A stretch of DNA of 64,000 nucleotides from Watersipora subatra (lineage: Eukaryota; Bryozoa; Gymnolaemata; Cheilostomatida; Watersiporidae): positions 49,525,196 to 49,589,195 of the forward strand of contig NC_088708.1 of NCBI RefSeq assembly GCF_963576615.1, read 5' to 3'. Under the pieces are notes generated by a model that saw only the letters and a program-made list of their open reading frames with translations, ran no database searches and was not told the DNA's origin. Shown piece by piece: positions 9,401 through 55,934 of this stretch; the stretch's first letter is position 1, and every line of letters begins with the position of its first letter. A program made the position numbers and the translations under genes.

Positions 9401-12400
9401 CACCAACTATGGTAGAGCTCACATGTAACTGGTCACAACTATGGTAGAGCTCACATGTAACTGGTCACAACTATGGTAGAGCTCACAGGTAACTGGTCAC
9501 CAACTATAGGATGAACATGCGCACGTGTAGCTAGTGAACGTCTGATACAATTCTGCTTCGCTGACTATGGGTATGAAAATAGCAGCACCTGATATATTAT
9601 TGGAATATAGTTTGGTTGGCATGCTCAAAAATATACATTGTGTACTTTATAGTGTTTGAAAAGAAATTGGAGCATGTCCAAAAAAGTGTTATATTTTGTA
9701 GGTCAGTCATACTAGAATTCTATACCGTAGCACTGATCAGAGTATTATCTATGCTATTCTGTTTTATGTCTGGTTACCTACTTAACCGTAGCAACCGTCA
9801 GTATCAGAAGATTGTCTACTACATTGTCTCACAAGAAAGTATCCAGCTCGGAGCACAGCATTTTAGTCAATCAGAAAATGCTCGCGCCTCCAAAATGTGA
9901 TTATTAAATACCGCAAGGTTGTTTAACTGGCAACTATAAAACATTGTGTGTCTCTCCATGAGAGCACAATTCTCATTTTTGTTCACCAATTGCATCTCAC
10001 ATATACTAAATGAGAATTTTAAGCTGATTTACTACAATAAATACAGTAAAGTAAATACAAGGCTGAGTACCTTTAGGAGGGTCACGGTAGAATTACTCAA
10101 TGTTGCCACCACCTGCTCAAGCTCTTCAACTCTTTTAGTTAATTTCTCACCTGGTTGTGAAATATGTAACTCAGGAACTGAAGCTTTTTCCTATAAATAT
10201 TGCACACAGTCTATAAAGATTGCTGCTTGTTGAAATTAGAAAGAACCTAATACGAACAGGAAGTAGTAACCATCAACATCTTTTACGATGAAATACTTCG
10301 ATATGTACGTATGACTTTTTATAGACATTAGTTATCATCAACAAAATAATGCTTTTCATTTGATGCCAAAAATGGAAATAAAATGAAAAAACAGAAATTA
10401 TTGAGTGAGTTGAACAAACATGTTTTAAAAGTTGGTAATGTAATAGTATAGCAGAGGAGTCGAGATAGCGAATTGAAGGTTGTAGTAACAGTAAGTTTAT
10501 AAACTGAAACATACAATAGTGGATGTAGTATGTTGGTGTCAGGAAATAGAAAACATTGTTTGTCGTACGTGTGGAAGGATAAATACAAATATTCTGGGCA
10601 TCGTTTATGCAAATGCCACGACTAGCTATGCTATTGCGTATAATGGGCTTCATTACTCTTCCAGCTTCTTTCTTTTGCTTAACTAATTTTTGTCGATTAA
10701 AATAAATCACAAATCAAATCACAAATAAAACCTGCAACACAAATGCAAAATGAGCAAGTTTAGGATAATAAGGCAAACGTTGATAGATTTTGTGATATGA
10801 TTGGTAGAAGTGTGGTAAGCTGTAATGTGATTGGTGGAAGTGTGGTAAGCTGTAATGTGATTGGTGGAAGTGTGGTAAGCTGTAAAACTAGCGCTAGTAT
10901 ATCAGCTTTAGTAAAATATTATAAACTGGTTTTATTGCATAATGTTTTCATTTAAATTACTGTTTTTATTTTTAAACTAGTTTTCTAAAATTATTTGATG
11001 TTTGTTGAACTGCTCACTCTATTGGTTAGAAAAACAATTTGATTCAGATATTTCAGAACAAGATTTCTTAATTTTGCGCAGGTTTCAAGGTCTGCTAACT
11101 TTGTACATACTAAACGCAGTTATGAGGCTGAATGGATACATCTTCTAGTCTTATAAACAACTTTCTAAGTCAACCTCATGTGTGAGGCAATGACAAGATT
11201 AGTAAACAAGCCACCACTATCATTCCTTTTAGGAGATTGAATCCCTGAACAGAAGCTATACAGTGAAGATAAATTTGAAATAGAAACACCAAGTTCTGCG
11301 ATAGCTGAGAATAATTTATGATGAAAACAAAAGCATTATCTTTATCTATATATACATAAACTCAATGTTTGTCATTTGTCTTTCGTCTGTCCAGATATAA
11401 CGATAAACTTTTCGACACAAAAAATCTCCGCTGCAGCTTGTACAAACTCAAAACCTTCAGATCCAGCAGGTAGATATATCCAGTCCATTAAACCACATAG
11501 CCTACTAGCTTTACAATGGAATAATTGTGCACATAGTTATCACATCTGCTAATTTTTAATGGCAATCGGTTAAAATATCTACACTTCACACTTGAACTAA
11601 TTTAGTAAAAGAACAATTTTACTTGAAGAAAAATATCTGCCCATATTTCCCAAAATGCTATAAATATATGTATATATAGTATGTACTTTATTAAACTTAT
11701 ACCAAATTTATACCAGAAATAAGCAAACATGTTGATTTAATATTTAGATGGTGAATAAATGGTGATTTTTCTGTACAATAACTTTTTTTATTACCCATAC
11801 GACCTCGGGCATTCACCTAGTCTAGATAGATGTCACAGGGTGACCTTAAGATTAGTGATAGACCTCCGTATACAAAGCAGATAAAAACACTTGGTACAAA
11901 TATCTCATAGTAGGTATGTATGCAATAGCACCTGGGCTGGAACCGGCATCATATGCTGTTGAGATTTTATAGGAGGTATAGGTTGGTCTGTAACCACTGC
12001 TGGTGATCCATCTTCAATCGCCGCTTCTTCTACAACGTCATCACTTTGCTTCTCAACAGGCTTCAATTTTAACTCATTTTTTAGCTGTGCCATCTCTTTC
12101 TCTTTCTGTGTCTTGACAGCATGCGCTGAGTGCTTTTTCCCAGTTGTCAAACTATCTCCTTCAGATATATGGGGCAAGTTTGGTGCAGACTCTGGCGCTC
12201 TGCTGAGTTCAGCATCTACCTGTGAGCATTAACTGAGAGCTTATCTGCTGTCTGCTTCAACCTTAACTACCTGCAAACAACTGCCAGTTCTCTGCTTGAA
12301 CACCTGCAACCAACTGCCAGTTCTCTGCTTAAACACTTGCATACAACTGTCAGTTTTCTGCTTAAACACCAGCAAGCAACTATCTAATATATGCTCTAGG

Positions 12401-21062: not shown

Positions 21063-21283
21063 TCAGAAATCATCCTGAAGAAGTTCGGGGATGTCGATAT
21101 CAGCGGGAAGACAACCCCTCTGCTGAGCGTACTGAAGGATCGCGATGTGACAGAATACATACTGATCAGGCATCTGAATTGCAAAGGCCCTCTGTGTGCG
21201 GATCAGTCTGACAACGGCCTTGATGTTCATCATCCCGGTATTGTCAAGGATGTACATACAAATGTCAGAGCAGATGAATGTAC
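21063..21283 (-). CDS. PTPN9: PTPN9 exon 14 (Q-loop and C-terminus)
   Basis: Residues 589-661 and the stop. It includes RTQRAFAIQMPDQYVF with Q-loop Gln625 and Gln629; the usual Thr after the first Gln is Met here. It ends IPELLQDDF. The acceptor is GGTTGCAG. Confidence 0.96.
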
Positions 21284-24200
21284 CTGCAACCCATACAAGA
21301 GCCAACCTCAGACTATGGCACACCAGAGGCAAAGGATATGACTTCAGGAAATGAACCTATAAGTCTATACAACTTTTCATCTAATTATATAATTCTTTAA
21401 AACTAATAATACTACAATGCTTGCTTGAAAGGCTAGGATCTAACGGAAGTCTTTGAAGGATGATTCTTTTTCAATTCAAATTATCAAAATTGTCAATTCT
21501 TGACAGAAAAGAGCCAGTGATAATCGGAAAAGTTACATAACCATTGTTGAAAACCAACTGGCTTTTTTGATGTCGCTGGACCATCAATTAATCTTTTTTA
21601 AATCCTGAAACTCACAGAGCGCTGCCAATGTGTTGATTTAAGTTTCTCAGACAAACATAATACAGTCACACAACATACAAGCTTAATAATACAGTCATAC
21701 CTCAACATACAAGCTTAATAATACAGTCACACCTCAACATACGAGCTTAATAATACAGTCATACCTCAACATACGAGCTTAATAATACAGTCATACCTTA
21801 ACATGCGAGCTTAATAATACAGTCATACCTTAACATACGAGCTTAATAATACAGTCATATCTCAACATACAAGCTTAATAATACAGTCACACCTCAACAT
21901 ACAAGCTTAATAATACAGTCATACCTCAACATACAAGCTTAATAATATAGTCACACCTCAACATACAAGCTAAATAATATAGTCACACCTCAACATATGA
22001 GCTTAATAATACAGTCATACCTCAACATACAAGCTTAATAATACAGTCTCACTTCAACATACGAGCTTAATAATACAGTCACACCTCAACATACAAGCTT
22101 AATAATACAGTCTCACTTAAACATAAGAGCTTAATAATACAGTCATACCTCAACATACAAGCTTAATAATACAGTCACACCTCAACATACAAGCTAAATA
22201 ATACAGTCACACCTCAACATACAAGCTTAATAATACAGTCATACCTCAACATACGAGCTTAATGTATTCTGGGACTGAGCTCACATGTCAATTTACCCGT
22301 GTCTCAAAACACTATTTTCTAAATAAAACAACTAAGTAAAAAGTAATGTTACCATATTATGAAAAGCCACCTAAAGCGTTTTTAATTGTTATAATTCGGT
22401 ACCTACACTAACAAAGTAACAAATACTCATTCAGTTGTTGTAATATAAAATGCAACATCACTATGTACACTACTGTATGGAGTTTTTACTTTCGAGACAG
22501 ACGTAGTGGATGGCGGTGGCCTGAGAGAGACTTGATAGCAACGAGTTCGGTACACTAAACTTTTGTGACGCTACGTAATAGAAACTTTGAAATTACTCCA
22601 ATGAAATTTAGCTTACTAAACACACACTTGAAGCTGAGTTTTAATCTTTTATTAAACTTGAATTTCGTCATATTTTGTTAATATCTGTTTCTGGTTATGC
22701 GCTTTTACCTCGGATTCACTATAACTTAACCAACCTGTTGAAAACTTTGTCAAACTGATACAGAGCGAAAAATTGAGCGATACTGTTCTCGAAAGCGGCC
22801 TCTCGCATACTTGGCCATATAGTGTAGCGGCCATCGAGAACCGACTTGTACGCTCGTATCTCAAAGATTACTCGTACCTCTAAGAAAAAACTTGCTAGAA
22901 AGTCAGCTTATATCTCGAGTTTCTCGTATGTTGAGTTTCTCGCATATAGAGGTCTGACTGTACTTCTTAAAAACCTTGTATACAACTTCCGGAAATGACA
23001 TAATCTCACTCTCTATAAACATTTATGTCAACTACACTATGAACATAACATTTTGTAGCTACATACCCGTCCGGCCTATTCCAGCGCTGCAGTGAACAAC
23101 AATAGGGGGGCCTCTGGGATGTCCCTGTTAACAATCAACAAGACTTCATTTACCAACAGGCTGAAGTAGAGATTGAAGACATTCATTGCAAAGGTAGAAG
23201 GAACAACTTTAGACCAAATAACTATGTCAGCATAGTTCAGATTTTTGATGACAATAGTGAGATGGGATGGTTCAAAGAGATGGTAAGGTAGCCCTAAACT
23301 AGTTGAAGTTCTTAGTCTATGACATTCCTAGTTCACTTAGTCTATGACATTCCTAGTTCACAATTTCCATACACTCTCTGATGAGACTCATTCAGAGTTG
23401 AAGGTATAAAACTATAGATCTGAAGACTGTTGACCGACTTGAAGTTCCCTTCAGGTTGTTAGAACAAGAGAGGCACCTTTAGAAAGGCAACCATAATATG
23501 TAATAAGAGCGCTGCTCACCGGATACCATTTGAATCTATACACATGGCAATAAAAACCACACAAATTATGAATTTTGTTAATCAACACGAGTGCTGAAGT
23601 TACAAATAACAGAAAAAAACTACATTAAAGTTCATGTTGCACCCACCTTCCATTCAGGCATCTCTTTGACAGATCTAGCCTGAGTCTCTCGGACACTTTT
23701 AACAAAATGGAGAAAAGCGTGCGAACTTGGCGGAATGCCATAGTCAGGCCACTTCAAGAAGAGCATATGTTTCACAAACCTCGTCTCCCCAGTCTAGAAT
23801 GACATAGAGTGGATGCAAAGCAAATCAAAGAGGAGCAAGGTCAAGAGTGATAAAAGCCTTGGATAGACTGGTAATATTCAAGCTGCCTTGTAACCGAAAT
23901 AACTGCCGTAAGTGAAACTACTTTTTAGCATTTACCAATGTATTACACAAAGAAGACCCACCAGTCATATTAACAATGTTTGCGCAGACAGTCATTTACA
24001 TAAATATACATTATACATCATAGGTATAGAGTTCGGCTCCCTTCTGCCATAGGCAAGGATGGTTCTCATCATTTAATGCATATGACTGATTATTTGTAAG
24101 TAGAAGTTGTCACCTCATGTTGTCTTAGGGGTGAAATGAGCATAAGCTTTAAACCATAACTGTCACGAACAACTTTTATCGTATGTTCTAGGTAAATCAG

Positions 24201-27200: not shown

Positions 27201-30200
27201 ATCAAATGGAATCATTACCCAGCGATTATCTAAAAGACACTAGTATGCATGCGAGCTGACATCTCTCCATTCAACATCAGCAACAAGACTGGTTCAGTGA
27301 CAGCGTTACAAGGACTTGCAGCGATGTGACAGGTAGCGGCATTACGAGCCTCCACATTGTTGCTTCAGTTTTTTTTATAAAATTCAGTATAACCAGAAAT
27401 AATATGTTTAACAATAACAATTGTTAGGTGCATAATACTATAAATATAGATTATACTAGTGTAAATAAGAACCTGGCACTTTATGAGTAACCCAACACAG
27501 CATCCATCTAACAAACATATAATAACAAACATAGAATAACCGAATTCAATAGCTAATCCATCTTGAAAAGATAACGCTTCATAAATTAAATCTTTATAGT
27601 CAACTCATTATCACTGGGTAAATGATAAACAAGATCTTGCCAAAAAGGTTCAAAATATGAAATGTCTAAACATCTCACTTAGTTGTCATGACGATCGTTC
27701 GAACTTTCTCCTGCCATATCATTCTCCAGAAATCTGCGAATGTTTTAGGCAAAGGTCCTTGGCAAGATATGTAGCCTCTTTTCTGATTGAAGCTGTTGAC
27801 ATGGTTGGCGTTGATATAATCCCCTTGCGCTCCTTGCATGGGCTCTAACAGAACTCGAGTAAAGTCGTAGCAGAGAACATCCGAGTAGCGATTTTTGCCT
27901 GCATTTACTGCCAGCCTACGGAACAGGACACAAAGCGTGCCTTTTACTTTCTTCAGTGATTTGCATCAGCTGTTAAAAACTGCTCACAAATGCATACATA
28001 GCTACTGGCAAACTTACAGTACATCTCGCTTAAAATTTGTAGAAATTACTATCACAGAAGGACAAAAATCACACAAACAAAGCAATGGTCAAATAAATCT
28101 GAAAATCGACTTATTACAGTTACTGAGCATCCTCGTGTATAAACCGTGATCATGCATAGGCCACATCCTAAACTTTGAAGGTTTTGTTTTTTGAGTTATA
28201 GGTATACAGCTTGTATAAACTGCACCCACTGTTCTATTTAACCTAGCCACGTGTGTCATTCGCCAATTCTACCGCCTCTCTCTGTCGTCACTCACACACA
28301 TTGGCCGACAAGGTGGCAATCGGCCAATGAGTGTTCTCAACTTCAGCAAACCACAGCAAATGAGTACCGAATCATCCAGAACAATTTGTAACCCATGTCA
28401 TCGAGAAAGACAAAATACGATGCGACATTTAAATTGAAACTTGCGAATGCAGCTTTGGAAACAACCAACTAAAATGATGCTAGTTTTTGGCCGCGATGAA
28501 AAGCAACCCGACAAATGGAATCAAGTGCTGGAAATGTCACATGACAGTTACAACGACTAATAACCTCATTACGTCACTACAAGTACTGGATACATCCTAA
28601 CGTCTTATTGTTGAATAAACTATGTTAAGCATTTGCGCATTCTAAAAAGTACCTTAATCTCAAACGTAGTCAGAAGTTTACAGATATAGTTGTTAAACTG
28701 CTTGCATAAGCCACACCCCAAACTTTTAAACATAATTTTAGGTTCACAAGTGTGGCTTATACACAAGGATTTACGATATTTACAATAATTATGATTACAC
28801 CAATAAATATTTACTATAATAAGACCAGTGTGTCTGTTGCCACGTTAAGAGCATTAAGAAAAAGATTGTCCCACACGGAAACTGACGCCAGAGCATCAGA
28901 TGCAAAGGCAAGCACACAATCACTGTACCACTCAGGGGCCTTAATGCTTCACGGAATAATTCTCTATATATACTGATTATTCATGATGATCTCTCACAGT
29001 GCGAAGGACTGGCAAGCGTACTAGTATGAATAAACTTTGTGTGAACATTTATTTGGAGGTTTTAGACAATTGCTGCAGTCAGACCTCTGACTATAAAAAA
29101 ATTAAAGATACATACTTATTTTATAGGACAAAGTGAGCTCACGCATAGCCACAACACAAACCTTGAATTATAGAAAGAGTCACGATGGGGCTCCATCTTT
29201 ATCCCCATGTACTCTGACACTAGACCAGACTTGCCGAGCTTACTCGCCCTTTGCAGCTGCTCGCCTGGAGAAAGCAGGTCTTCGATATTTTTAGAGAAAA
29301 CTGACTCAAACGGGTCTGTATCAGCCCAAGAAGGTGGCAGCGATGGTATGACAACACTTCGTTCCATCGGCACATCTCTAAAGCAAAAGCTAAATATGAT
29401 GCAAGACGAGACAATATAGAAAAAGATACTAGCTATTGGCGCAGGCATTGCTTAAAAAGATGATTCAGTGTTGGTACTAAAGCCTGCAGCTACTATTATA
29501 ACATCAATGGCCTGACATTGGGATGAATGTATTACCAGCCTCATGAACAGAGGAGAAAGTGAAGCGGGCTGGTGGTTAGTGCTGTATTTAGTAGAGTGAG
29601 TGAAGATAGCTAGTGGTTAGTGCTGTATTTAGTAGAGTGAGTGAAGATAGCTAGTGGTTAGTGCTGTATTTAGTAGAGTGAGTGAAGATAGCTAGTGGTT
29701 AGTGCTGTATATAGTAGAGTGAGTGAAGATAGCTAGTGGTTAGTGCTGTATTTAGTAGAGTGAGTGAAGATAGCTAGTGGTTAGTGCTGTATTTAGTAGA
29801 GTGAGTGAAGATAGCTAGTGGTTAGTGCTGTATTTAGTAGAGTGAGTGAAGATAGCTAGTGGTTAGTGCTGTATTTAGTAGAGTGAGTGAAGATAGCTAG
29901 TGGTTAGTGATGTATTTAGTAGAGTGAGTGAAGATAGCTAGTGGTTATTAGTAGTGAAAATAGCTATAGATAGGTTCTTGATAGCTATAAGACACATTCA
30001 CAGTTTTCCTCTCGGCAGCTACAGGATAATTTCAGAGATTGGTCTTTTTGACAGCTACGGGACACCGTCAGAGATTGTCTTCTTGATAATTACACAACAT
30101 TTTTAGACTGCTTAAAGAAAATTGTTAAAGGAAATTGCCTTCTCTCTTTTTTTCACACCTTCTACCAGTCGCACTGGTATTCTAAGGACCCATGACAAAA

Positions 30201-33200: not shown

Positions 33201-36200
33201 TCTATCAAAACCTCAACAACAATGCTTCGGCGTGAAATCATCATCAGCTAATGGCATCATTATCATTGTTTGCCGTCTCTCACATCATCATTATCATAAT
33301 TTGTCATCATGAATGACTCACTCCATCCATCGCAATAGTCTACTGTTGCTACGTAATCCTATACGGAACTCAACTCATCCAGATTTCTATGGCAACTTAC
33401 CCTGTCTCTTAGTTTCTCCTTGACAAATAGACGAAGAATCTTAAAAGGGGCTTTGAACCAGAGAGGGGCCAACACTATGAGCACTTTCTTTAGTCGAGCT
33501 GGAAAGGAACCCTGGCAATATATGAAAATAAAGAATATCTAAGACCGGTCGCCGATAACAGCTGATCCCATAATGCAACTCATATTTGCCATGGTATAGC
33601 CCTAGGGTTCTCTAAATCTTGTATATAAAAAACTCTACAACAATAGGGTTCATTCTTTCTTATATGAAATTTTAATCATGAAATGATGGTAATATATTAT
33701 ATATTACTAGCTGTGCTACCCGGCGTTGCCCGAGAGTTACAAATCAGCTTATAAACAATGAGAAGTAATGAGAGTTGCCTGCCACTTGCTATTAGCCTGG
33801 CAGATTGCCAATGGAAAATTTTAGTAAGCTAACTAATGACAATCATTTACTTATGCAATCACCCTACGTGGTATGCAAAGCCGTTGGGTATGTGCTTCCA
33901 TATAACGGTTTATATCGTCAAGCTATCAACTGGGTAGCCCGTCAGACTCGCGAACGGTAGGGTCTGAGATCAAATCTTTTTCAGTACGGATTCTTTACGG
34001 ACTTTATTCTCTTTATTCTTTTTCATACGGACATACTTTGGGAAATATATATATGTAGATAGAGTCTATATTACATAGGAATGTCCCACATAGTAGAAAA
34101 CTTAGTCCAGTGCCTGTTATAAATACAAGTTCTCTAACCAAATGTAAGACGCAATATGTTTCGGAAAAAGATGATTTCCGGAACGCCAACGGTTTTACTT
34201 TAAATTTCGCGGTCTTACATTATACTGCTACTATAAAATATCGTATACATAACCAAAGGTTGTGCCCATTTTTTTATATTTTTGAGTATCTTGGTAGTAA
34301 TTTGATCTTCATTGAAATAGGCCACTCCTAACAGGAATTATTTCTGCCTACACCGTTGTTGTAAAAATACTAATGATAATATTATTATTGTTAACCATAA
34401 TGTTATTATGTTTATAGTAGTGCTTACTTGTTGTCAAACTTATCAGGAGAAACGAGATGACTAGACATTTCTTCAAGAGCACAACAGATATAAAAACATC
34501 TGTCCGTTAATGCAATATATAGATTAAAATCTAGAAATCCTACTATTGTACATCTTGCCTATTTAATGACCCTTTGAATTTCATGTATTGCTTGATGCTT
34601 TGAATGTGAGCTGTGTGCTGAATAATAATACACTACTGCCTAAAGGTCATGTAAAGAGAAGGCAACTTTAAAAGCATATTGCCGATTATGCATACACTAC
34701 AACCAATGATAACACTCTAGGAATACTGTATTCCCTATATATAAGAAATACCTACACTAAAAGTGACCAAACAAGTTCTCATAGCCATCAGCAGCACGCC
34801 ATTTCTGCCATTGTGCAGCTATATTTTCCAAAGTTTTGTTTGCAAAAATCTGTGCTTAATGAATATTCCTGGACTTACATGCCGGTATTTTTAGAAATAG
34901 ATTATTGTATGTATATACCTAAATGTACATAAAAGAGTGGCCGAAAAAGGTGACTGAAAAAAAATCCTCTGTGTTGGCTGATATAATTTCATAAGTAAAT
35001 CACTTGAGCTAAAGCGAAAAGCCTTGACCTCAATTGTAAAACGAGAACGTAAAAGAGTTAGGATTACAGAAATTCCCTAAGACGACGATGCATTTCATTG
35101 AGTTTGGCAAAATGATTTATTATAATAATGAGTGCAATGCAATGTTCACCCTAGTTTTTAACTACAATTTATTGATGTTGAGTGATCCTGATGTTGAGCA
35201 ATAGGCCACGCAACAAACTACAGTGATTTCCGTGCAAATCTGAACCAATCAGAAACATAATTTTTTTTCCATTCTGTAATCAGCCTAACCAGAATACCCA
35301 AGTTAAAATCACAAGCGAATTAACATATTGTAATATTGAAATAATTCATATATAAGAGTTAATAATCATTTTGAACACTAGTAATACAATTGAAAGGTGT
35401 ACAAACCAGTGTTTATGCCCTTTTAGTAAAACTGAGTCTACAACATGAAAAGAAGGTATGATTTTGTGGGAGCTGTGACAGGCTTAGCTACAACAGCATC
35501 AACATGCTGTATACACCCTTATGAATTCCGTTAAACATCAACATTTAAGTTGAAAATATTTTATATAAGTCACTCTGAAACAATTGAAATCATTGTTGGT
35601 CACATAAGTTTTACCCTCATTGGAATCCTGCAAATCACAGCAGTGTAATCAGGTCATTTACTAGCGAGTAATCTTTATATCGCAAAACATGAGCTGCCAC
35701 AAATTTGACCAACTAGTCGGATAAACAAGTAACAACCTGTGTGGATTGGTCAAACTTCATTTCCTGTAGGTGTTTTTTGAAAAGGCTGCACACCCAAAAT
35801 GGCCTCTTGCGTCGCTTTTAAAACATTATCCGCTCATGATAAAACATTAACACACATGTGGTATCGGTCTAATGGACCAGTCTAATCCAACCAACCTTGA
35901 GGAGGTTGAGTATCTTCACACTCAAATCATAGTCAAAGTTGCTGAACTTGGAGCCTGTCATGTCATAGACAAACACAAGACCATTCCTTTGGGTCTGTAT
36001 GCTACAAAAGAAAGTACAATTAACAACTTAAATTTATCAACAAATACAACAAGTCTCAAGCACTAGACTTGAACAACACTAGATTTTCGAAGAATATTTT
36101 GGCAAATTAACAGATGCAGAATTATTTGATGAAAAGGAAAGTTTTTATGTAGATGATTTTCCATGTTCAATTGATGCCGAAGATGATTATGAAGAAATAA

Positions 36201-39200: not shown

Positions 39201-42200
39201 TATATAATTTTTACAAGCCAAAAGATTTTCATCTCAGCAAAAAGTTCTCCTTAAAAACATCCATCCAAGTCGTGGCCACTCACATAGTTTCAGTTCATAT
39301 AATAAGACAAATTACTCAATTGCGGTAAACTCAAATAAAACATATCATGGTTTGTGCAGCACACATTCATGTCTCTCTTTCACATGTATGGCAGTTTCCA
39401 CACTGACACTACTCCGCTGGTGGTGCCATATAAACATCCTGTAATCAATAAACAAATGTAATAAATATATGTCATTCAGAGATATTTCGTTCTAATGTGT
39501 ATCTACTGAAAGCTTTCAATTTGGGAGTTGGATAGATAGAGAGTCAAAAATTACAAAATGAACAAATGTTTAACAAAAGCATAAGTACAAGCCAACAATT
39601 CACTTTGTTTGATTAATCCATTTTCCTCCCTTTCTACAAGTGAGAAGTGAACGTAAATTCTAATCATAAATCTAATTTACTAGCTAGAACTGCCAAAGAA
39701 AATTTGAAGCAAATATTACAGCTAGATGAAACAATAAAAAAGTTATGAAACGATGATTCATGAGAGAAAAAAACTATAATTTTATTAATTAGTAAATGTA
39801 TTCATGAGAACTAAAATTATTACCTTCAGTTCAGTGTATATATTAAACATAAATTTACCTCCATTCTCCTATTTTTCACCGAAGCATAACGCTGCTGACG
39901 CCTGTCATCTCTAACCATGAGCTGTCGGCCCTAATCTTCAACTACCTGATGCTCAGAAAACGTAGTCACCTTCGCTGGAACTGTATGCATTGTTACAATT
40001 CTGTTGTTCGTCAATTAAATGTGTCAATGCAGTGATTCAGTAAATTAACGATGTCAAATAATTCAGTAAATTAAATAATAATGTCGATACGCGAATTAGT
40101 AATTGAGTAAAAACTCTAACGACGAGAATCTTCAAGATCCCAAACAACTCGTATTACAAGCGATAATATTTATTATGACCTATATAAAAATTTTGTGCTG
40201 ATGATTGGCTAAAAAGATCTTATATTTATCGCTCGTGGACTCTTTTCATATACGTTTACTATATACGTCACAAATAAAGCACCTGCTCGAATCTGAGCGT
40301 TTAAAAAATGATCTCATTCACACGCTTATATCACTGGACAGGGTTAGTCTAGAAAGACAAAAATGACATCAAATAGTAGCTGATGTTTCAGCCTTTTATT
40401 GGTCTTAATTTTATTTGGTAGACTTTATTGACGCAATCACACCTTTAAACAATGTATTAAAAACTAGAAGAAGTGGACCAGCAGCAGATCGTGGTTTCTA
40501 CTTCAAGAGTATATTCCCCTTTTTATGACAGATTCTTTGTTCAGTTCATAAAATATATTTATTTCAGTTGAATATTTGTCCACTCTCATGTGCACTACTC
40601 CAGCAACACAAACTAACATTGTCAGAATTTGGAAAAAAAACACTAGCAGTGTTACAGGTTTAATCACAAGAAAAGTTTGAACAAAATAACTGACCCTACT
40701 TTGGTAACTTTGTAAATAACTTTCCAGGACTGAGGGGGCAAATCCAGTCAATATTTCATTACTGAGTCAATAGATTAACTGAACACAAATGTACATCTAT
40801 ATGGGTACCTTGTCAAGTCGAGGTTTATTATTGGAGTACACTTATAGAACAACCAATAGTAATATAGAATTACTTACAAAACAACAAATGGTAATGTAAA
40901 ATTACTTACAGAACAACCGATGGTAATATGGAATCACTTACAGAACAGCCAATGGTAATACAGAATTTTCTTACAGAACAGCCAATGGTAATACAGAATT
41001 TTCTTACAGAACAGCCAATGGTAATACAGAATTTTCTTACAGAACAGCAAATGGTAATATAGAATAACTTATAGAACAAATAATGGTATCTTACAGGAGC
41101 AATAAGATATACTTCCTGTAATCTACTTATTATTTATACTTATAGTTACTTATAGAACAAATACCTTTTTATATAGGCTGGTCACACTATCGTTTTGCCC
41201 ACTAATAGAGCTGTGGACAGTATCAGTTAGCAACTTCTTAAAGTAAAATCTATCACTAATGACAAAACCAGGTATCAAAAAACTTTCGAAATCAGGACAG
41301 AAACAGTTTCCATTTGCCAAGATTGCGCAAACCATGTGCATGCTTTCCTCATCATTAATATCATAACCGGCATCTGCGCCATTAGTTTTATTGTTGCACC
41401 TTTTTACAGTTTACTACCTTTGCTATTATTGCAAGAACATTCAAACTAATAACATCCATCACACTCAACTGATAACAATCAAGTTTGAAAGAAGGTTTTT
41501 ACTAAAGGATTCTCTTCAACATGAGTGAGCTTAAACGAAGTCGTATGAAATTAAAGTTTTACCATATACTAAATGTTGCTTGTGCTTCAATGTATGCATC
41601 TTTATTAATAAATCACACTTTGTCATTGTCTGTCTGTCCGCGTGAACCCTGCGCATTTCCACATATTTTGGAAAAACAAGCTTCAAACTTAGCCCGAGAT
41701 GTTTAAATTGAGAGTTAGAGTTGAGAAAAGACAAATGATATAACCAGGTGATTAACAGTGTCAGCAGTCTTTTCAAGGAAGCTGAAGGTAAACAGTTACA
41801 ATGAAGACGCAGACACATGGTCCTTCAATAGTGAATCACCAATTTGCTCTCTATAATGGCATGAATTGAAGCTAGACATGCTATGTTGTAAAGCTGATCT
41901 TTGAATACTTTTCAATGCATTTTAAACCACTACAAAATGCTTGCTAATGACACATTGGGACAGCACAACTTGACAACTCTGAACATGCGTTAGAGCTCTC
42001 TGCGTCATCTATAGCAAATAGCAGAGGAGAGTCTAAAGAATGGATCACAACAGAAATCTAACCTGTCAATGACTGCATCCAATTGGTGCACGAGTGATTG
42101 AAGTGTGACGTTTCTAGAGGTGCTGAGCGGATTATGGAATCTAGCGGTAAATAGAGCAATGGCTGCACCGTTCTCGTCTCGTGCATCCTGGTCAATGATC

Positions 42201-45200
42201 AGACAATTCAAGAATAGTGTTTAGCTTAATTTGGCAGCAGGCAATAGAGAGAGAAAGCGGGTGAGCCTCGCGCAACAATCAGGCAATGTAGCAAATGGTT
42301 TGTAGTAGTTACCAAGTATTACTGGTACAGGCATACTAAGCATCTATAAGATTAAAATAAACATTTGACTTAAAAATACACCCTAACCTAAAAAAAGGCT
42401 TGCTTACACCGTAAATCCCAGTGTAGAAGTCAACATGGCATACAAGACAAGGTCTATAGGTTTGGTTTAAAAATCCTTGTTTTGTTATATACCTGTCATG
42501 TAAACCGACCCCCTTCTCTGGCTCAAATCGCCTGATTGGACTATTAGAGTCAGCATATGAGGCAGGCGATGAGTAGCTGTGGAAATGGCATTCAATAATC
42601 AACTGCGTCATCAGTAAAAGTGGCGATTTTTTTGGTGTAATCACAAATATAACAATTAAAAAAACGCGAGAAGACAGTTCTGGTGAAGACAACAGGGCAC
42701 GAAAAACAACAGTACACCCGCGTATCGACCCGCCTCGACAATAAAAAGAAACTGCAACCTTTGATAATATGCATTTAAAAGAAAAGCAGTGCCGCAGGAC
42801 AGCTTTTCGCCAGGAATTGTGATTCATGTACAAAAACGAATGGATGATAGTGGACATGTCAAATAGATTATCGAAATATACGCTCGTGGGCTGATACTAC
42901 GAAAAGAGCATTAAATTTTAAAAACCCTTTTTCAGAAGAGGATCCTTACGATGACCATTTGAATGATGAAGAATGGGACTTTGTGTTTGATCCAGGATTA
43001 CTAGTACTTTACTATTTTATAAAAATCCCTCTATGTCATCATGTAATTTTGATTTGCGATAATTTTCTCCAATTTGAATTTAATAGAATTTGTGTCATGT
43101 AAAACTTCACCGCTGTATGAGTCGAGGATGGATTTTTAAGCTTGAATGTGGTGTTAAATTTTCTTTTTATACGCTGAAACCTATGGTGCATTAAAAACAG
43201 ACATCTGAGAACTAAAATAGCTATAGAACCACCAACTAAATATACTAGTAGTGAGCTGATTATAGAAATATGTTCAAGTCATAAGGATGAAGTATAAGGA
43301 GTACCAAAATTGTGAGCTTGCCACTGATTAGTTCTTTTCTGATCTCTGCACTGCACGGGTTGATGTTTAGTAGCCGTTCTTTTAGATATACTTCCTGTAA
43401 CACAATAAGATATATTTCCTGTAACATAATAATATATACTTCCTGTAACACAATAATATATACATCCTGTAATGCAATAAGATATACTTCCTGTGACACA
43501 ATAATATATACATCCTGTAACATAATAAGGAATACTTTCTGTAACACAATAAGATATACATCCTGTAATGCAATAAGATATACTTCCTGTAACACAATAA
43601 TATATACATGCTGTAACATAATAAGGAATACTTTCTGTAAAACAATAAGATATACTTCCTGTAACACAATAAGATATACTTCCTGTAACACAATAAGATA
43701 TACTTCCTGTAACACAATAAGATATACTTCCTGTAACACAATAATATATACATCCTGTAACATAATAAGGTATACTTTCTGTAACACAATAATATATGCA
43801 TCCTGTAACACAATAAGATATACTTCTTGTAACACAATAAGATATACTTCCTGTAACGAGTAATATATACATCCTGTAACACAGTAATATATACTTCCTG
43901 TAACACAATAAGATATACTTCCTGTAACACAATAATATATACTTCCTGTAACATAATAAGGTATACTTTCTGTAACACAATAATATATGCATCCTGTAAC
44001 ACAATAAGATATACTTCCTGTAACACAATAATATATACATCCTGTAACATAATATGGTATACTTTCTGTAATACAATAATATATACATCCTGTAACACAA
44101 TAAGATATACTTCCTGTAACACAATAATATATACTTCCTGTAACACAATAATATATACTTCCTGTAACGCAAGAAGATATACTTCCTGTAATGCAAAAAG
44201 ATATACTTCCTGTAACGCAATAAGATATACTTCCTGTACCATAATAAGATATACATCCTGTAACACAATAAGACACTTCCTGTAACACAATAAGATATAC
44301 ATCCTGTAACACAATAATATATACATCCTGTAACATAATAAGGTATACTTTCTGTAACACAATAATATATACTTCCTGTAACACAATAATATATACTTCC
44401 TGTAACGCAAGAAGATATACTTCCTGTAATGCAAAAAGATATACTTCCTGTAACGCAATAAGATATACTTCCTGTACCATAATAAGATATACATCCTGTA
44501 ACACAATAAGACACTTCCTGTAACACAATAAGATATACATCCTGTAACACAATAATATATACATCCTGTAACATAATAAGGTATACTTTCTGTAACACAA
44601 TAATATATACATCCTGTAACACAATAAGACATACTTCCTGTAACACAATAATATATACTTCCTGTAACACAATAATATATACTTCCTGTAACGCAAGAAG
44701 ATATACTTCCTGTAATGCAAAAAGATATACTTCCTGTAACGCAATAAGATATACTTCCTATACCATAATAAGATATACATCCTGTAACACAATTAGATAT
44801 ACTTCCTGTAACATAATAAGATATACTTCCTGTAACACAATAAAATATACTTCCTGTAACACAATAAGACATACTTCCTGTAACACAATAACATACAGCA
44901 ATCCAGTTACCTAAATATTTGGCTATAAAATTCTTACGACTTATGCATGACAGATGCTAAAATTAGCATTTCAGAATGTAATGCTAGTTTGATTCTGATT
45001 TACTTGCGATATATCAGATTTCTAATAGTAGCTTTTTCGTAGCGCAATAGCACAAGTTGCATAGACAAGTTTTAATACTAAAATCAAGTATTTTACGCAC
45101 AATGATCATCAAGGTTATATGCTAAAAGGTCGTTGTAAAATATAAATCCACTTTTTTATATCTGAACAATTAAAATACATCAAGCTAAGAATTACGGAAA

Positions 45201-48005
45201 TATGACAGACTATTTTTGAAAAAATGTTTATAAACTACAAAATGTTTTTCCATGCACATGTATTTGCTATACTGGTCAAAAATTCACTCAAGTAGTAAAA
45301 ATGGTTCTCTACAGTGGTGAACACTTCTTCACCAGTTGGCTCAGGAATCTAAGTGATCCCATACATCTACGCAAGCTCTTTGCACTTCAGAATGAAATGC
45401 TAATTTTAACATGCCAAGATTTAAATGCTAATCCAAATCTTTATCTTTTATGTTTTTACTAAATATTAATGTGACAAATGATGGTTTACAACACCACAAA
45501 AGTGAAACAAACCCCAAGAGCCTGTAATACTATAATGTAACCTCTCCTAAAGCTGACAGAGATATCTGAGGCATTGAAGAAGTGCACTGCACATAGAAGT
45601 GCAGAAAACGTATTCAATTGCTTGCTTTGAAACCTTTCTCTTTCTACAGGACCATTGAGCAAGACAAAACTGTTAAAAAGAAGAATCAGACCAATTATGT
45701 ATAAACCATAGTAACCTAAATCATGTGGAAAATGCTACAGGATGTGGAATGAGTGCTTAGATAGACATCAGTGCTTCCAATTGTTTTCAAATGAATATGC
45801 CCTTAAACCAGCCTTGACCTTGGCGTATAAAATCAATATTTTATTATATTCAATACTACTAAACTAGCTATCACTAGTAAATTTATCCAATCCAATCTGT
45901 TCACACTGACAAGGAATTAAATTCATATTCAATTCCATCAACCGTTTAAAACTAAACCCCGCCCTTGCATGGTAAGAATAGATTTGACCATTCTAATAAG
46001 GATCAGATGCAAACAAGTTTAACACATTCTCACTGAATGATGTCGCTGCAACTCCAGTGCACGATCTTTATCAAACTTCATTGCCATGCAAAACTTTACT
46101 GCCTCCTTCCATGTTACTGGTCCAAGATTCGACTGCCGTCTGCGGAGATTCACATCCTCTAAGAATTGCTTGACAATCTATATTCAACACAAAAAAATGT
46201 TAATTACCCCATTGAGGTTTTTCAATTATAACTTTATTGTATGTATTTGACATTTGAAGAAAATATAAGCAATATAGGCCTGCTGTCCTTTGAATAGAGA
46301 TATGACATTGAGTCATCACAACCAGGAAGAAAGCATAGAATTGCTACAAGTCATACATCCTCATAATAAATCAATTATGTTTAGCTAAGCAGCTTGACTC
46401 CATAGTACTATTCTCGTCTAATGTTACATGGAAAGGAGAGCGTATTGATTAAAATGTATCAACTTGTTCAACTCAGGTGTTGAGTACTCTCCTGTATCTT
46501 AGCTCTAGCACTAAGAGGAAGGTTGAGTCAAGTAATTATCCGATATAGGCAGCCAGTGGTAGACTATCATTATCACCTACATGTTGTAGACCGAACTAGA
46601 TATTTAAATAAAAATTAACTTGATTACACGCTTTTGCAATAAAACTCTGTACAAATAGATACAACTAAAACAATATTTAACTTTATATTTTGCTCCAAGA
46701 TGGTAGAAATAAAATTCCTTACTTTCTACTATTGCAATTCAACAACTTGTGGTGACTAATGCAGCAGATATTTAGCTATTCAACAACCCGTTGTTGGTAC
46801 TGCAGCAAGGATTTATAAGGATATGTGTCAAGGCAATACACACACCTAAAGTACTAGCCCTTACAACATCGTTTGGTGCAAAAATACTAACCAGCTCATA
46901 AACTATCAGCCAGCAATGATGGTTTAAAGTAATAAAGCTTAAAATAAAACTGAATTGATATTTTAAAATATTCTTCCATTGACAAACCCTTTAAATTGAT
47001 CTAAGTTACTTTTAAGGTTTTTTCGATGATCACTTGCAAGCCACTACATATTCCAGCTATGTGTAAATGGCCTTCACCTTAGCATTTGACATTGATTTGA
47101 CTTTCATGATACTATATCTACATTATATATATAATACATATTCCCTTATAACCATAGCAAATATTAAGTTAATTGCGCACAACTAACTAAAATCAGTCAA
47201 CAATTTTGACGAATGCCTAAAATGATAGGTGTTACATTCAATAAGACACAAGCTATCGGCATTTCTTGCAGTGCTGCATTTATCTGTTTATACAAAATTC
47301 CTGAGCCTGGAAATCTAGAGAAATACTTGAGAAGTTACGATAAACATTGACATTATACAGAGCTACTGAAAAATTTTAAAGTGACACAGTAGCTACCATG
47401 TGGTAAGCTACTATTTTTGAATTATACATTCAAAAATTATAAAACACTGCGACACAAGCTTTTTTGTTAAATACTCACTCTCAATTTACCTTAAACGCAA
47501 TGCAATTTTTAGATCTCTTGGATAAATAATAAACTATGAATAGGCCCACTAAAATCTGAGAAAACACAATTTCAAAAAAAGCTATATTACTGATTTCAAA
47601 TAAATTTATTAGGTAAAATCGGCAACTGTTATAGCATGTGTCATTTGTTCCACATAATTCCAAAAAACAACGCAAAGTTGTCTAATAAAACTACTTCATG
47701 AAGGTTTCTTTGTCAGACATCGAAGTGGTAAACTAAAATAAGAGATGGGCATTCAAGTTAAACTTGCAATAAAACTTTAAAAAACAAACTATTACTTTTT
47801 GCTAGTGATCTTTATCAATACCCAACATATGATCATTCTATTGGTAGAAAAAACTATTCGATTTTGTCATTCATACTATTCTGGTATGAATAATGGCAAA
47901 ATAACACAAATCAGAAATTTCCGTTCAAACGACGATACTGCGCTGTGGTGTGCAAGCATATAAAAGCTTTACCTGCTCCTCGCCAGGAGTCAACTCAGAC
48001 GCCAT
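21063..48005 (-). CDS. PTPN9: PTPN9 (MEG2) orthologue: CRAL-TRIO plus tyrosine phosphatase, 14 coding exons
   Basis: Complete coding gene of 661 residues in 14 exons, from ATG at 48005 to TGA at 21063. All splice phases agree. Residues 1-about 245 form the CRAL-TRIO N-lobe and Sec14-like lipid-binding domain (KQFLEDVN, ALFTARFHNP, QRNGLVFVYDMTGS, PARLKKVLIV, LPAHLGG), which in vertebrate MEG2 binds phosphoinositides on secretory vesicles. A Pro/Ser-rich linker follows (about 275-340), then a classical phosphatase domain: KNRY (396-399), DYINA (421-425), WPD with Asp537, P-loop HCSAGIGRTG with Cys581 and Arg587, and Q-loop Gln625 and Gln629. All key residues are present, so an active enzyme is expected; MEG2 dephosphorylates substrates such as NSF in vesicle fusion. 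Human PTPN9 has 593 residues, and the extra length here is mostly linker. The orthology call is firm; the substrate role is inferred from vertebrates. Confidence 0.95.
21650..22268. repeat. 32-bp minisatellite built from a transposon end, about 19 copies
   Basis: The unit TAATACAGTCATACCTCAAC plus ATACGAGCTTAA is head-to-tail in PTPN9 intron 13. The last unit continues directly into the element at 22234-22962, whose left terminus has the same sequence, so the array appears to be an expansion of that terminus. Confidence 0.85.
22234..22962. mobile_element. Non-autonomous inverted-repeat element (MITE)
   Basis: The left end TACAGTCATACCTCAACATA and the right end (CGCATATAGAGGTCTGACTGTA, read in reverse) are imperfect inverted repeats. 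The interior repeats 'cgagtttctcgtatgttgag' type words near the right end. No transposase is seen. Confidence 0.65.
23067..23124 (-). CDS. PTPN9: PTPN9 exon 13 (58-base catalytic P-loop exon)
   Basis: Residues 570-588 plus one base: PPIVVHCSAGIGRT, with the nucleophile Cys581 and phosphate-binding Arg587. The final Gly of the signature is split by the intron. The acceptor is GTTAACAG and the donor G|GTATGT. Confidence 0.97.
23647..23793 (-). CDS. PTPN9: PTPN9 exon 12 (WPD loop)
   Basis: Residues 521-569 with FLKWPDYGIP, holding the general-acid Asp537. The acceptor is ATTCTAG and the donor AAG|GTGGGT. Confidence 0.96.
24149..24943. mobile_element. Long palindromic (fold-back) element
   Basis: The left arm (about 24149-24440) and right arm (about 24665-24943) are inverted copies about 280 bases long, from TAAACCATAACTGTCAC to GTGGCAGTTATGGTTTA. 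The unique centre near 24545 is short. It lies in PTPN9 intron 11. Confidence 0.8.
25540..25615 (-). mobile_element. Possible tRNA-like SINE fragment
   Basis: The minus strand reads GCATTAGAGCGTTGGTCTAC, then a GAGTTGGAGTATC B-box-like word. This is weak evidence only. Confidence 0.3.
26105..26352. repeat. 61-bp tandem repeat, 4 copies
   Basis: The unit GTGACCTTGTTAATAAATGC plus about 41 bases (TTCAACCAATCACAATC and so on) is repeated with 1-3 differences per copy, in PTPN9 intron 11. Confidence 0.9.
27034..27190 (-). CDS. PTPN9: PTPN9 exon 11
   Basis: Residues 468-520 with KCGTYWPQE. The acceptor is CTTCCAG and the donor TCT|GTAAGTG; phase 0 out. Confidence 0.94.
27679..27915 (-). CDS. PTPN9: PTPN9 exon 10
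   Basis: Residues 389-467 with KNRYSDV, QGDYINANHV, GYISCQGP and DFWRMIWQ, the phosphotyrosine loop and core of the catalytic domain. The acceptor is GTTCCGTAG and the donor AA|GTGAGA. Confidence 0.96.
28116..28790 (+). mobile_element. Fossil pogo-like DNA element
   Basis: The ends are imperfect inverted repeats (CCTCGTGTATAAACCG on the left; CCTTGTGTATAAGCCACAC read from the right). Inside, 28395-28473 encodes MSSRKTKYDATFKLKLANAA and then stops. This resembles the N-terminal helix-turn-helix of pogo/CENP-B-type transposases. The rest of the transposase is gone. Confidence 0.55.
29162..29377 (-). CDS. PTPN9: PTPN9 exon 9
   Basis: Residues 317-388, the linker end and start of the phosphatase domain (GLVSEYMGIKMEPHRDSFYN). 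The acceptor is GCTTTAG and the donor AAG|GTTTGT; phase 2 in and out. Confidence 0.9.
29555..29950. repeat. 41-bp minisatellite, about 9 copies
   Basis: The unit GTGCTGTATTTAGTAGAGTG plus AGTGAAGATAGCTAGTGGTTA is nearly perfect. It lies in PTPN9 intron 8. On the minus strand each unit has TACTAAATACAG, which looks like a branch point plus AG, but the nearest exon start is about 180 bases away. Confidence 0.93.
30668..30794 (-). CDS. PTPN9: PTPN9 exon 8 (Pro-rich linker)
   Basis: Residues 275-316: Arg/Pro/Ser-rich and ending GSAPTGPPPAPPR, a polyproline stretch that could bind SH3 or similar domains. The acceptor is CTTGTTAG and the donor CA|GTGAGTT. It has no obvious match in vertebrate PTPN9. 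Confidence 0.88.
31880..32093 (-). CDS. PTPN9: PTPN9 exon 7
   Basis: Residues 204-274 plus one base: the end of the CRAL-TRIO domain, with IPHKALPAHLGG and the following NHVSWLRTCL. The acceptor is TTTCAAAG and the donor G|GTAAAT. Confidence 0.93.
33401..33511 (-). CDS. PTPN9: PTPN9 exon 6
   Basis: Residues 167-203 with PARLKKVLIV and APLWFKAPFKILRLF, the lipid-pocket strand and gate helix of the Sec14 fold. The acceptor is TTGCCAG and the donor AGG|GTAAGT. Confidence 0.95.
33700..34060 (+). mobile_element. SINE-like element with tRNA-like block
   Basis: It begins CTAGCTGTGCTACCCGGCGT and continues like the copy at 60.97 kb (TTGCCTGCCACTTGCTATTA). Near its end is a tRNA-like block, ATCAACTGGGTAGCCCG to GAGATCAAATC. 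It lies in PTPN9 intron 5. Confidence 0.65.
35896..36001 (-). CDS. PTPN9: PTPN9 exon 5
   Basis: Residues 131-166 with QRNGLVFVYDMTGS, the core CRAL-TRIO strand. The acceptor is TTTTGTAG and the donor AAG|GTTGGT. Confidence 0.95.
36083..36280 (+). pseudogene. Unassigned acidic open patch
   Basis: A 65-codon stop-free frame between stops, rich in Asp/Glu (AELFDEKESFYVDDF), has codon composition more protein-like than its surroundings. Further open patches with Cys pairs follow at 36329-36900. There is no clear start or splice context, and it sits in PTPN9 intron 4 on the opposite strand. It may be a decayed transposon-encoded protein; I do not recognise it. Confidence 0.2.
37014..38170. mobile_element. 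Non-autonomous inverted-repeat element with an internal hairpin
   Basis: The left end TACAGTCAAACATGGATAAC mirrors the right end (GTTATCCATGTTTGACTGTA). Inside, 37449-37587 and about 37691-37828 are near-perfect inverted copies, giving a hairpin with a stem of about 138 bases. It lies in PTPN9 intron 4. There is no transposase. Confidence 0.88.
40850..41095. repeat. 33-bp tandem repeat, about 7 copies
   Basis: The unit GAACAGCCAATGGTAATACA plus GAATTTTCTTACA lies in PTPN9 intron 4. The outer copies are diverged and the inner three nearly identical. Confidence 0.88.
42063..42187 (-). CDS. PTPN9: PTPN9 exon 4
   Basis: Residues 90-130 plus two bases: DENGAAIALFTARFHNP and the following helix. 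The acceptor is TGACCAG and the donor CAG|GTTAGA. Confidence 0.94.
43305..43394 (-). CDS. PTPN9: PTPN9 exon 3, acceptor inside a minisatellite
   Basis: Residues 60-89 (EVYLKERLLNINPCSAEIRK, then ELISGKLTIL), matching the end of the N-lobe in PTPN9. The acceptor TTACAG|GAAGTATATC and the first ten exon bases are themselves a unit of the adjacent 24-bp array. The donor TTG|GTACTC is weak. An acceptor one unit upstream would add eight in-frame codons. Confidence 0.85.
43382..44895. repeat. 24-bp minisatellite duplicating the PTPN9 exon 3 splice acceptor
   Basis: About 60 units of 24 bp. On the minus strand each reads TTATTGTGTTACAG followed by GAAGTATATC, that is, an AG acceptor plus the first ten bases of exon 3. 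The innermost unit overlaps the exon. All three minus-strand frames are open across the array; the exon 3 frame reads EVYLIVLQ per unit. A block of about five variant units (GCAAGAAGATATAC, ATGCAAAAAG, CCATAATAAG) recurs at about 44167, 44407 and 44692, showing higher-order duplication. Confidence 0.95.
44990..45395 (+). mobile_element. Dispersed repeat R3, uninterrupted copy
   Basis: It shares its left half with 49045-49262 (TCTAATAGTAGCTTTTTCGT, then AGCGCAATAGCACAAGTTGC) and its right half with 52336-52510 (TGGTTCTCTACAGTGGTGAA and so on). The halves are contiguous here, so this is the intact arrangement. A short open frame, MVLYSGEHFFTSWLRNLSD, lies in the right half. Confidence 0.8.
46034..46177 (-). 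CDS. PTPN9: PTPN9 exon 2
   Basis: Residues 12-59, the CRAL-TRIO N-terminal helices (KQFLEDVN, then TWKEAVKFCMAMKFDKDRAL). The acceptor is AATATAG and the donor TCA|GTGAGA; phase 0 to 0. Confidence 0.93.
47973..48005 (-). CDS. PTPN9: PTPN9 exon 1
   Basis: Residues 1-11, MASELTPGEEQ, with donor CAG|GTAAAG. The ELTP-x-EEQ start matches vertebrate PTPN9, which fixes this ATG. Confidence 0.9.
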
Positions 48006-54298: not shown

Positions 54299-55508
54299 TT
54301 TAGGCTTTACTGGTATTTTCAAAATTGATTAGAAAACCATATTTTTGGGCAGCTACTTTGATGATAGGTAATGCAGCACAGGATTTGCACACTTTTATGT
54401 ACGTTAATTGCCTTTTTAGGCTAGAATTTATGCCAAAGCCAATTCTAGATTTGCCTTCCTTGTCCAACCCTTTGTGCAATGGGCTCTTGAAATATTAGTG
54501 ACTGCTCATTTTAATTCCTGACTAGACAGTACTTCATACAAAAAATTGACTGTTTTTAAATTTCAAGTGCAATTTGAAATGGAATATTTGCATCTGCATT
54601 TGAAATATCCAAATGTACTGTATGAATTGAAATATATACTGTATGTATGCCTCTAAAAAGATCTGAAAAAATCCAACAGTTCTGTTTGATGATTAGTTTT
54701 ATTTGTGTATATATTTTTATAGTATATTTTAATTATTCATATTGCATGGTTTCATTTTATAATGGTATTCTGAGTATTATAAGTTTTATTTTTGAATGAT
54801 ATCTTTGTTTCTATGTATTATATTTATTGTGATATATAATGTAGTATCAGCACATTGCTTGTCTTACAACCACAACCATGAGTGTTTTACCAGATGACCT
54901 GATAACATATCTGTCTTTTTTGTTTTTGTACTGAAGCTCAAATAATAACTTGACACATGCTATGGAGAAAAAGTAGCTGTCAGGTTTGTGAAAAACATCA
55001 TTCATTATGTTTTCAAGCTCCACCATGAGTGGTTGCTACTAGAAATTTATTACAAGCCTTTGCACATTGATGACTAATAGTGAAAGTGATAAAATATATA
55101 TATATTACTTTATGAGCAATAAAATCATTTCAACTAACAATGTTTTTCTAACCGTACTATACAACAATAATAAAACAGAAAAAAAGTCAACAGTTAGCCA
55201 CTAAAATCGAATTAATAGTTTGACAAATAGTGTTTAAAATGCCTTTCTCTGCTATGAGAACAGATTTTAAGTGGAAGATTGTTAAAGCAGTTGGCAATAC
55301 TTTCAAAATACTTTGTACTAATTGTATGCAATTTGTTCATATCACGTAAGTTGAAACAAGTGTAGAATCTGTGATTGTCATATAAAAAATGAAGACACAA
55401 ACCATGAAATTAAAACCTTAAAACCTTTAATTAAAACCATTAAAACCGAAAAGCATTCCTGTTAAAAGAAAAACTTTTTTACTTGGTTATTTGTAGCAGG
55501 CAAGGTCA

Positions 55509-55934
55509 ATGGAGGATTATTATAGCATTTTGGGCTGCTCTATCGACTCATCATTGGACGAAATAAAACAACGATACAGAGCACTTGCTCGACTCTGTCA
55601 CCCTGATTCAATCAGAGCGGATGTAACTAGCAAATGTGAGGAGGATTTCTCGAGAGTAAGTCACGCGTACAAGGTACTGAGTGACAGCCTAACGAGAAGA
55701 GAGTATGACATAAGGTGGCATCAGATGAAACTAGTCCAAGATCACCCTATTCACGATACGATTCATCTCTCCGATATGGACTCTGATGAGATGGGAGAGT
55801 ATTCATATCCATGTAGATGTGGAGACACATTTGAACTTTCTGAGCTCGATGTCTTCATTAGGAATACCTATGCCTTTTGTTCATCCTGTTCTCTTTGTAT
55901 AGAGATTATTTATCCCACATCTAAGAAATCCTAG
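55509..55934 (+). CDS. DNAJC24: DNAJC24 (DPH4): J-domain protein with CSL zinc finger
   Basis: 141 residues in one exon. Residues 3-70 are a J domain with the HPD motif at 31-33. Residues 98-135 are a DPH-type (CSL) zinc finger with Cys102, Cys104, Cys124 and Cys127. This pairing is diagnostic for DNAJC24/DPH4, the cochaperone and iron carrier for the first step of diphthamide synthesis on elongation factor 2, in the cytosol. Human DNAJC24 is 149 residues, so the protein is full-length. An acceptor-like TTATTTGTAGCAG ends just before the ATG, suggesting a 5' untranslated exon upstream. The coding part has no introns, unlike the vertebrate gene, so a retrocopy is possible, but the frame is intact and no poly-A tract flanks it. 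Confidence 0.93.
   Translation: MEDYYSILGCSIDSSLDEIKQRYRALARLCHPDSIRADVTSKCEEDFSRVSHAYKVLSDSLTRREYDIRWHQMKLVQDHPIHDTIHLSDMDSDEMGEYSYPCRCGDTFELSELDVFIRNTYAFCSSCSLCIEIIYPTSKKS

Follow-up and report, generated by a model that had tools for sequence, protein, structure and literature searches.

The window, by which we mean the whole 64,000-nucleotide stretch of DNA that was analysed, carries on its minus strand what reads as a gene of the PTPN9/MEG2 layout, in which a CRAL-TRIO domain is followed by a PTP domain. Its exon peptides lie in order from 46.2 kb down to 21.1 kb and, when joined, match the Pfam families CRAL_TRIO (6.8e-27) and Y_phosphatase (2.3e-64), and the catalytic motif HCSAGIGRTG is found at about 23.1 kb. 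The exons were joined by eye at inferred junctions. When the PTP part was compared with the PDB, the top chains were two-domain receptor PTPs, which are scored over both domains, and PTPN9 came first among the single-PTP-domain chains (195-198.5 bits, among the best 60 matches listed). The initial annotation had named the gene PTPN9, and as a PTPN9-like gene this identity was borne out by both domains on the joined peptides. A genome search with the N-terminal region, at E values up to 1, found no paralogue lacking the array described below, since all three matches belonged to this gene; when a shorter N-terminal fragment was compared with the PDB, nothing matched at E 0.001. The features of the locus, in the order of transcription, are as follows.

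46034-46177, minus strand: exon 2 (…RALELQRHHS), donor TCA/GTGAGA (the slash marks the junction), phase 0 end
44896-46033, minus strand: 5' portion of intron 2 preceding the array, unique sequence
44878-44910, minus strand: AG-free stretch of 31 nt and the outermost AG, with TAAC at 44906-44909; overlapping the array's outer part unit
43384-44895, minus strand: 24-bp minisatellite, overlapping exon 3 by about 10 bases
44114-44781, minus strand: higher-order repeats on the intron side of the array (units -58 to -31), from identity lags
43305-43394, minus strand: exon 3 (EVYLKERLLNINPCSAEIRKELISGKLTIL), 90 nt, phase 0/0, TTACAG/GAAG...ATTTTG/GTACTC
42063-42187, minus strand: exon 4 (DARDENGAAIALFTARFHNP…), acceptor GACCAG/GATG
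35896-36001, minus strand: exon 5 (…IQTQRNGLVFVYDMTG…)
27675-27905, minus strand: match in the exon holding the start of the PTP domain (Pfam Y_phosphatase)
23068-23124, minus strand: exon with the PTP catalytic motif (GHPRGPPIVVHCSAGIGRTG), read by motif, ends approximate
21135-21287, minus strand: match in the exon holding the end of the PTP domain (Pfam Y_phosphatase positions 183-233)

The donor of exon 3, G/GTACTC (43299-43310, minus strand), is without the usual G at position +5 and looks weak. Since the exon is 90 nt long, skipping it would keep the reading frame.

The boundary between intron 2 and exon 3 is covered by a minisatellite which TRF reports as a single array (43384-44895, minus strand; period 24, 63.2 copies, 86% matches). 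Wrap-around alignment divides it into 62 intronic units, numbered -62 to -1 and each 22-24 bp long (24 bp in 59 of them, 23 bp in one and 22 bp in two). The outer end is an 18-bp part unit, and the inner part unit is the start of exon 3 itself (GAAGTATATC, then divergence), so that the first 10 nt of the exon form the innermost copy of the repeat. The consensus unit is composed of GAAGTATATC (10 nt, exonic) and TTATTGTGTTACAG (14 nt, the intron end with the acceptor TTACAG). A 24-bp unit present some 63 times is not a matter of chance. The earlier description of a unit in about 60 copies that spans the AG acceptor and the first ten bases of the exon is confirmed by TRF and by the unit alignment, and the latter also agrees with its statement that the exon start serves as the innermost unit. 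Of the 62 units, 61 retain the acceptor AG and one, unit -19, has AA; if the outer part unit is included an AG stands at 62 of 63 junctions. The indels of the array are one 1-bp deletion and two identical 2-bp deletions, all three of which shift the frame. The 62 units fall into 28 unit types which follow one another in an ordered pattern, with peaks of unit identity at lags of 10, 12 and 22 units. In the higher-order region (44114-44781) three blocks, none longer than 12 units, share runs of identical variant units and the same 2-bp deletion is common to two of them, which indicates block duplication on the intron side, whereas the units on the exon side are mostly singletons. This ordered pattern together with the exon-side singletons is the expected trace of block duplication that acts locally while the edge escapes it.

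Which of these acceptors is the authentic start of exon 3? Exon 2 ends in phase 0, and exon 3 read from the innermost TTACAG/GAAG also starts in phase 0. The protein joined in this way, with zero extra units, aligns gap-free over query residues 20 to 98, a segment spanning both exon 3 junctions, to alpha-tocopherol transfer protein (alpha-TTP; best chain 3w67, E 1.3e-15). Of the four alignments shown, the remaining three (1r5l, 1oip and 6zpd) contain two gaps of 2 residues that compensate each other close to the junction of exons 2 and 3, where alignment confidence is low, and leave the net length unchanged; they speak against a net insert and not for an exact base. As there is no net insertion relative to alpha-TTP, no octapeptide insert is called for. 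From phase and protein alignment, the innermost acceptor is likely to be the authentic one, in agreement with the initial annotation, and the same two observations support the boundary spanned by the repeat unit as a real one. Two other sites within reach were considered. GCAGAG/ATC, inside exon 3 and named as a rival site in the initial annotation, is also in phase 0, and its frame does not tell it from the innermost acceptor; its use as the exon start would drop 17 residues which have partners in alpha-TTP and therefore seems unlikely. The acceptor TCTAAAAG/AACGG was discarded, as in phase 0 it reads AAC GGC TAC TAA. Nor does the length of the AG-free zone set the native acceptor apart, because many other units likewise have 22 nt.

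It had been proposed that all three minus-strand frames are open across the array, that every included unit adds an octapeptide without a stop and that the acceptors are equivalent products of tandem duplication. At the level of DNA the frames are indeed open over about 1.5 kb (510, 492 and 524 codons), but an mRNA would keep its frame from only 28 of the 61 alternative AGs, those with 1-17, 19 or 37-46 extra units, and these stop-free readings would insert 8-136, 152 or 295-367 residues. The other 33 AGs (20-36 and 47-62 extra units) break the frame into exon 3 because of the three deletions described above, and the outer five (58-62 extra units) also meet a stop within the array. Similarly, the ladder exists and its acceptors share a hexamer, but the context around them differs. 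The AG-free zone measures 31 nt at the outermost AG, where it includes the TAAC word, 22 nt at the native one and 16-22 nt at the rest. We infer that this TAAC is a putative branch site. Since the outermost AG combines the longest AG-free zone with a branch-site-like word, a simple scanning rule would select the wrong end of the array. An RNA fold that might hide the decoys was not found in the innermost 216 nt, which fold no better than shuffled sequences (z = +1.26).

The variation among the units tells us whether the array evolves as coding sequence, and it does not. Distinct substitutions, read in the frame of exon 3, comprise 5 silent and 18 replacing changes, against 16 and 56 possible ones, and changed cells at codon positions 1, 2 and 3 number 54, 26 and 36. 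With no bias to silent change and with indels that shift the frame, nothing suggests a coding array. No hexamer of the unit varies less than the acceptor hexamer TTACAG. It holds 6 of the 116 changed cells, a number far below its share that could be read as constraint, although cells are related to one another by duplication; counted as distinct changes, indels included, it holds 4 of 26, where an even share would be 6.5, and this shortfall is too small to claim selection clearly.

Repeats of this kind have been described in lancelets under the name of mirages, that is, minisatellite-like repeats spanning intron/exon boundaries in the Adh3, globin, troponin C and PGBD5 genes, and they duplicate splice sites, 3' ones included, while the authors report normal splicing. 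The Adh and TnC mirages are said there not to yield aberrant mRNAs. The array in the PTPN9-like gene shares three features with them, being a tandem minisatellite-like repeat whose unit joins intronic to exonic sequence and in which many copies of the AG are kept; in lancelets too, many but not all copies over the boundary retain AG or GT. The mirage globins named there are BflGb6 and BflGb9: in BflGb6, as here, the unit consists of the 3' end of an intron and the start of an exon, in that case exon 2, and copies at the edge of the cluster escape homogenisation. The dimensions are different, however, since the BflGb6 units are 150-160 bp long and number 6 or 3, against 62 units of 24 bp here, the PGBD5 repeats measure 60 and 108 bp and the Adh3 units 10-72 bp. 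The initial annotation knew of no described case on this scale in a conserved phosphatase gene. As to kind this was mistaken, because lancelet mirages duplicate splice sites in several genes; the kind is already known, and the instance is new and large. Its copy number of 62 is larger than the lancelet numbers known to us, so that the scale may be unusual. In the open-licence literature, which leaves out most subscription papers, no mirage by that name was found outside lancelets.

Two human examples are related in part. The minisatellite of IFI6 (6-16) provides multiple splice donors (Turri et al. 1995, as cited in PMC4526556), so there as here the minisatellite units carry splice sites; according to that citing text, the IFI6 units are donors reported to be used in transcripts, whereas the units in PTPN9 are acceptors and their consensus contains no GTRAGT. 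In human segmental-duplication genes, variable tandem repeats at exon-intron boundaries may form novel introns, and alternative transcripts back most of the intron changes (PMC2812944). These repeats resemble the PTPN9 array in that minisatellites at a boundary can alter gene structure, but they average four 30-bp units in recent paralogues, as against 62 units here.

How exceptional is such an array in its own genome? The genome searched (784 Mb, 239 contigs) is rich in minisatellites: a 200-kb sample, made up of 20 regions at hand-chosen positions, contains 33 arrays of at least 3.5 copies amounting to 25.8 kb, 10 kb of which is one satellite region, and the window contains 13 arrays (4.9 kb, 7.7%). 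We then looked at the surroundings of 47 exon hits, to PTP and kinase domains, in 40 loci hand-picked among the matches listed, one of which (L056) had been picked for its long open frame. Arrays of at least 3.5 copies cover 9.15% of the flanks of these hits, yet they hold none of the 94 hit edges; a hit edge is only an approximation of an exon edge and often falls within the exon, which alone would lower this count. Repeats of at least two copies hold one of the 94 edges (locus L053), and another edge (L059) lies within 20 bp of an array. The sampled exon edges are thus rarely found in arrays, and a 62-copy array on one is not a casual occurrence; its tolerance needs explaining. At L053 (G000:C3:21719700-21720700, positions 331-439) the donor of a PTP-domain exon lies inside a repeat of 2.2 copies of about 50 bp (GTAGGTGACCC…), which spans the donor GCCAG/GTAGGTGACC and is a small mirage on the donor side. 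A boundary-spanning repeat therefore occurs elsewhere in this genome, but long ones seem rare, as would be expected if most were harmful.

The array itself has a high-identity match in the genome only at its own locus, and related arrays elsewhere are 61-73% identical. Among seven array-related loci examined, one (L032, G000:C11:24328500-24330200, positions 392-1131) has a 23-bp unit in 32 copies, with TTACAGGAAGT in the consensus unit, inside an apparent intron. It begins about a dozen bases after an apparent exon donor, and no exon boundary was found under the array. It shares an 11-mer with the PTPN9 array, a sharing that is biased because the locus was found by similarity.

Taken together, these observations are probably best explained by an unusually long mirage that arose by duplication at the boundary and has stayed intronic, with the innermost acceptor chosen and the array tolerated. 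A 24-bp segment straddling the intron 2/exon 3 boundary would have been duplicated in tandem to give the unit, and unequal exchange together with block duplications on the intron side would have enlarged the array. Exon 3 would be recognised as an exon together with its own donor, so that the innermost acceptor is chosen and the copies upstream are mostly passed over or rarely used. We infer from this that splicing picks the innermost acceptor and that the gene tolerates the array without making use of it. Against this reading stand the gap pairs in three of the four alpha-TTP alignments, the rarity of sampled exon edges in arrays (0 of 94 at the threshold of at least 3.5 copies), the zone at the outermost AG, the weak donor of exon 3 and the low number of changed cells in TTACAG (6 of 116). 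The first alternative, and one of the two roles proposed originally, is that acceptors of the array are used often enough to give PTPN9 proteins with variable EVYLIVLQ-type inserts before the CRAL-TRIO core. The 28 in-frame, stop-free AGs and an acceptor hexamer that is the least variable of the unit would suit it, but 33 of the 61 AGs break the frame, there is no silent-change bias, the indels shift the frame and the inserts would sit where the protein has no net insertion relative to alpha-TTP. Lancelet Adh and TnC mirages, moreover, are said not to make aberrant mRNAs. With 28 of 61 AGs in frame, 5 silent against 18 replacing changes and 4 of 26 distinct changes in TTACAG, this role is not supported, and we regard it as unlikely.

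Could the outer acceptors instead compete with the native one and act as a splice-site sink, with frame-shifted, destroyed transcripts and a lower PTPN9 output, possibly depending on the length of the array? In favour of this, the outermost AG has its 31-nt AG-free zone and TAAC, its use would lead to a stop after 39 codons, and the exon 3 donor looks weak; exon definition, however, would favour the copy nearest to the exon, and lancelet mirages, open to the same competition, are reported to splice normally. We consider a sink improbable. Quite improbable, too, is a length-dependent splicing rheostat, in which the productive share of PTPN9 mRNA depends on how many acceptors compete upstream of exon 3, downstream of the branch site, with minor in-frame insert isoforms; if it existed, allele length would tune a membrane-trafficking phosphatase. 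That an assembly error inflated the array is very unlikely. Its internal blocks repeat almost exactly, a kind of sequence prone to misassembly, and one lancelet mirage appeared aberrantly assembled in a draft. On the other hand, 1.5 kb would be short for long reads, at least 11 contigs of the assembly are 46-79 Mb long, the window is without N, the 28 unit types stand in an ordered pattern, and the boundary-spanning unit stands even if the count is wrong.

The gene presents a row of some sixty nearly identical 3' splice sites, of which only the last should be right. Such a gene is a clean test of how a spliceosome chooses its acceptor, between the first AG after the branch site and the AG nearest to a defined exon. 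Mirages, moreover, may exist in minisatellite-rich genomes other than those of lancelets, as this case suggests.

Other arrays of the window contain splice-site-like words as well. GTRAGT is present in the unit of four of the 13 arrays (1-259, 6762-6813, 29568-29947 and 40840-41088), and in a recount at another TRF setting it was observed 3 times against 0.41 expected (P = 0.008). The 200-kb sample showed no such enrichment, with 2 observed against 1.01 expected over 30 arrays (P = 0.27). We therefore rejected the idea that minisatellites in general are born at splice sites. TTACAG occurs 2 times against 0.34 expected in arrays of the window, the PTPN9 array included (P = 0.046), and 0 times against 0.85 in those of the 200-kb sample; CAGGT occurs 6 times against 1.5 in the sample arrays (P = 0.0045, one of twelve comparisons). 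At another locus (L015, positions 7303-9970), two arrays have an 18-bp unit with CAGGTAAGG or CAGGTACGG; by eye they seem to be separated by an element whose ends are inverted, which looks like a small transposon inserted into the array. PTP-domain matches, among those listed, cluster on G000 contigs C7 and C9 and at C1:60-65 Mb, which suggests a tandem expansion of PTP genes. In the window no Rfam match was found, and a search for COX1 was likewise without a match. An open frame on its plus strand (55497-55931) has DnaJ and CSL zinc-finger domains and is presumably DPH4/DNAJC24-like, and the segment 14001-18000 is G+C-rich (45-51%), with frames that by eye resemble integrase and reverse transcriptase.
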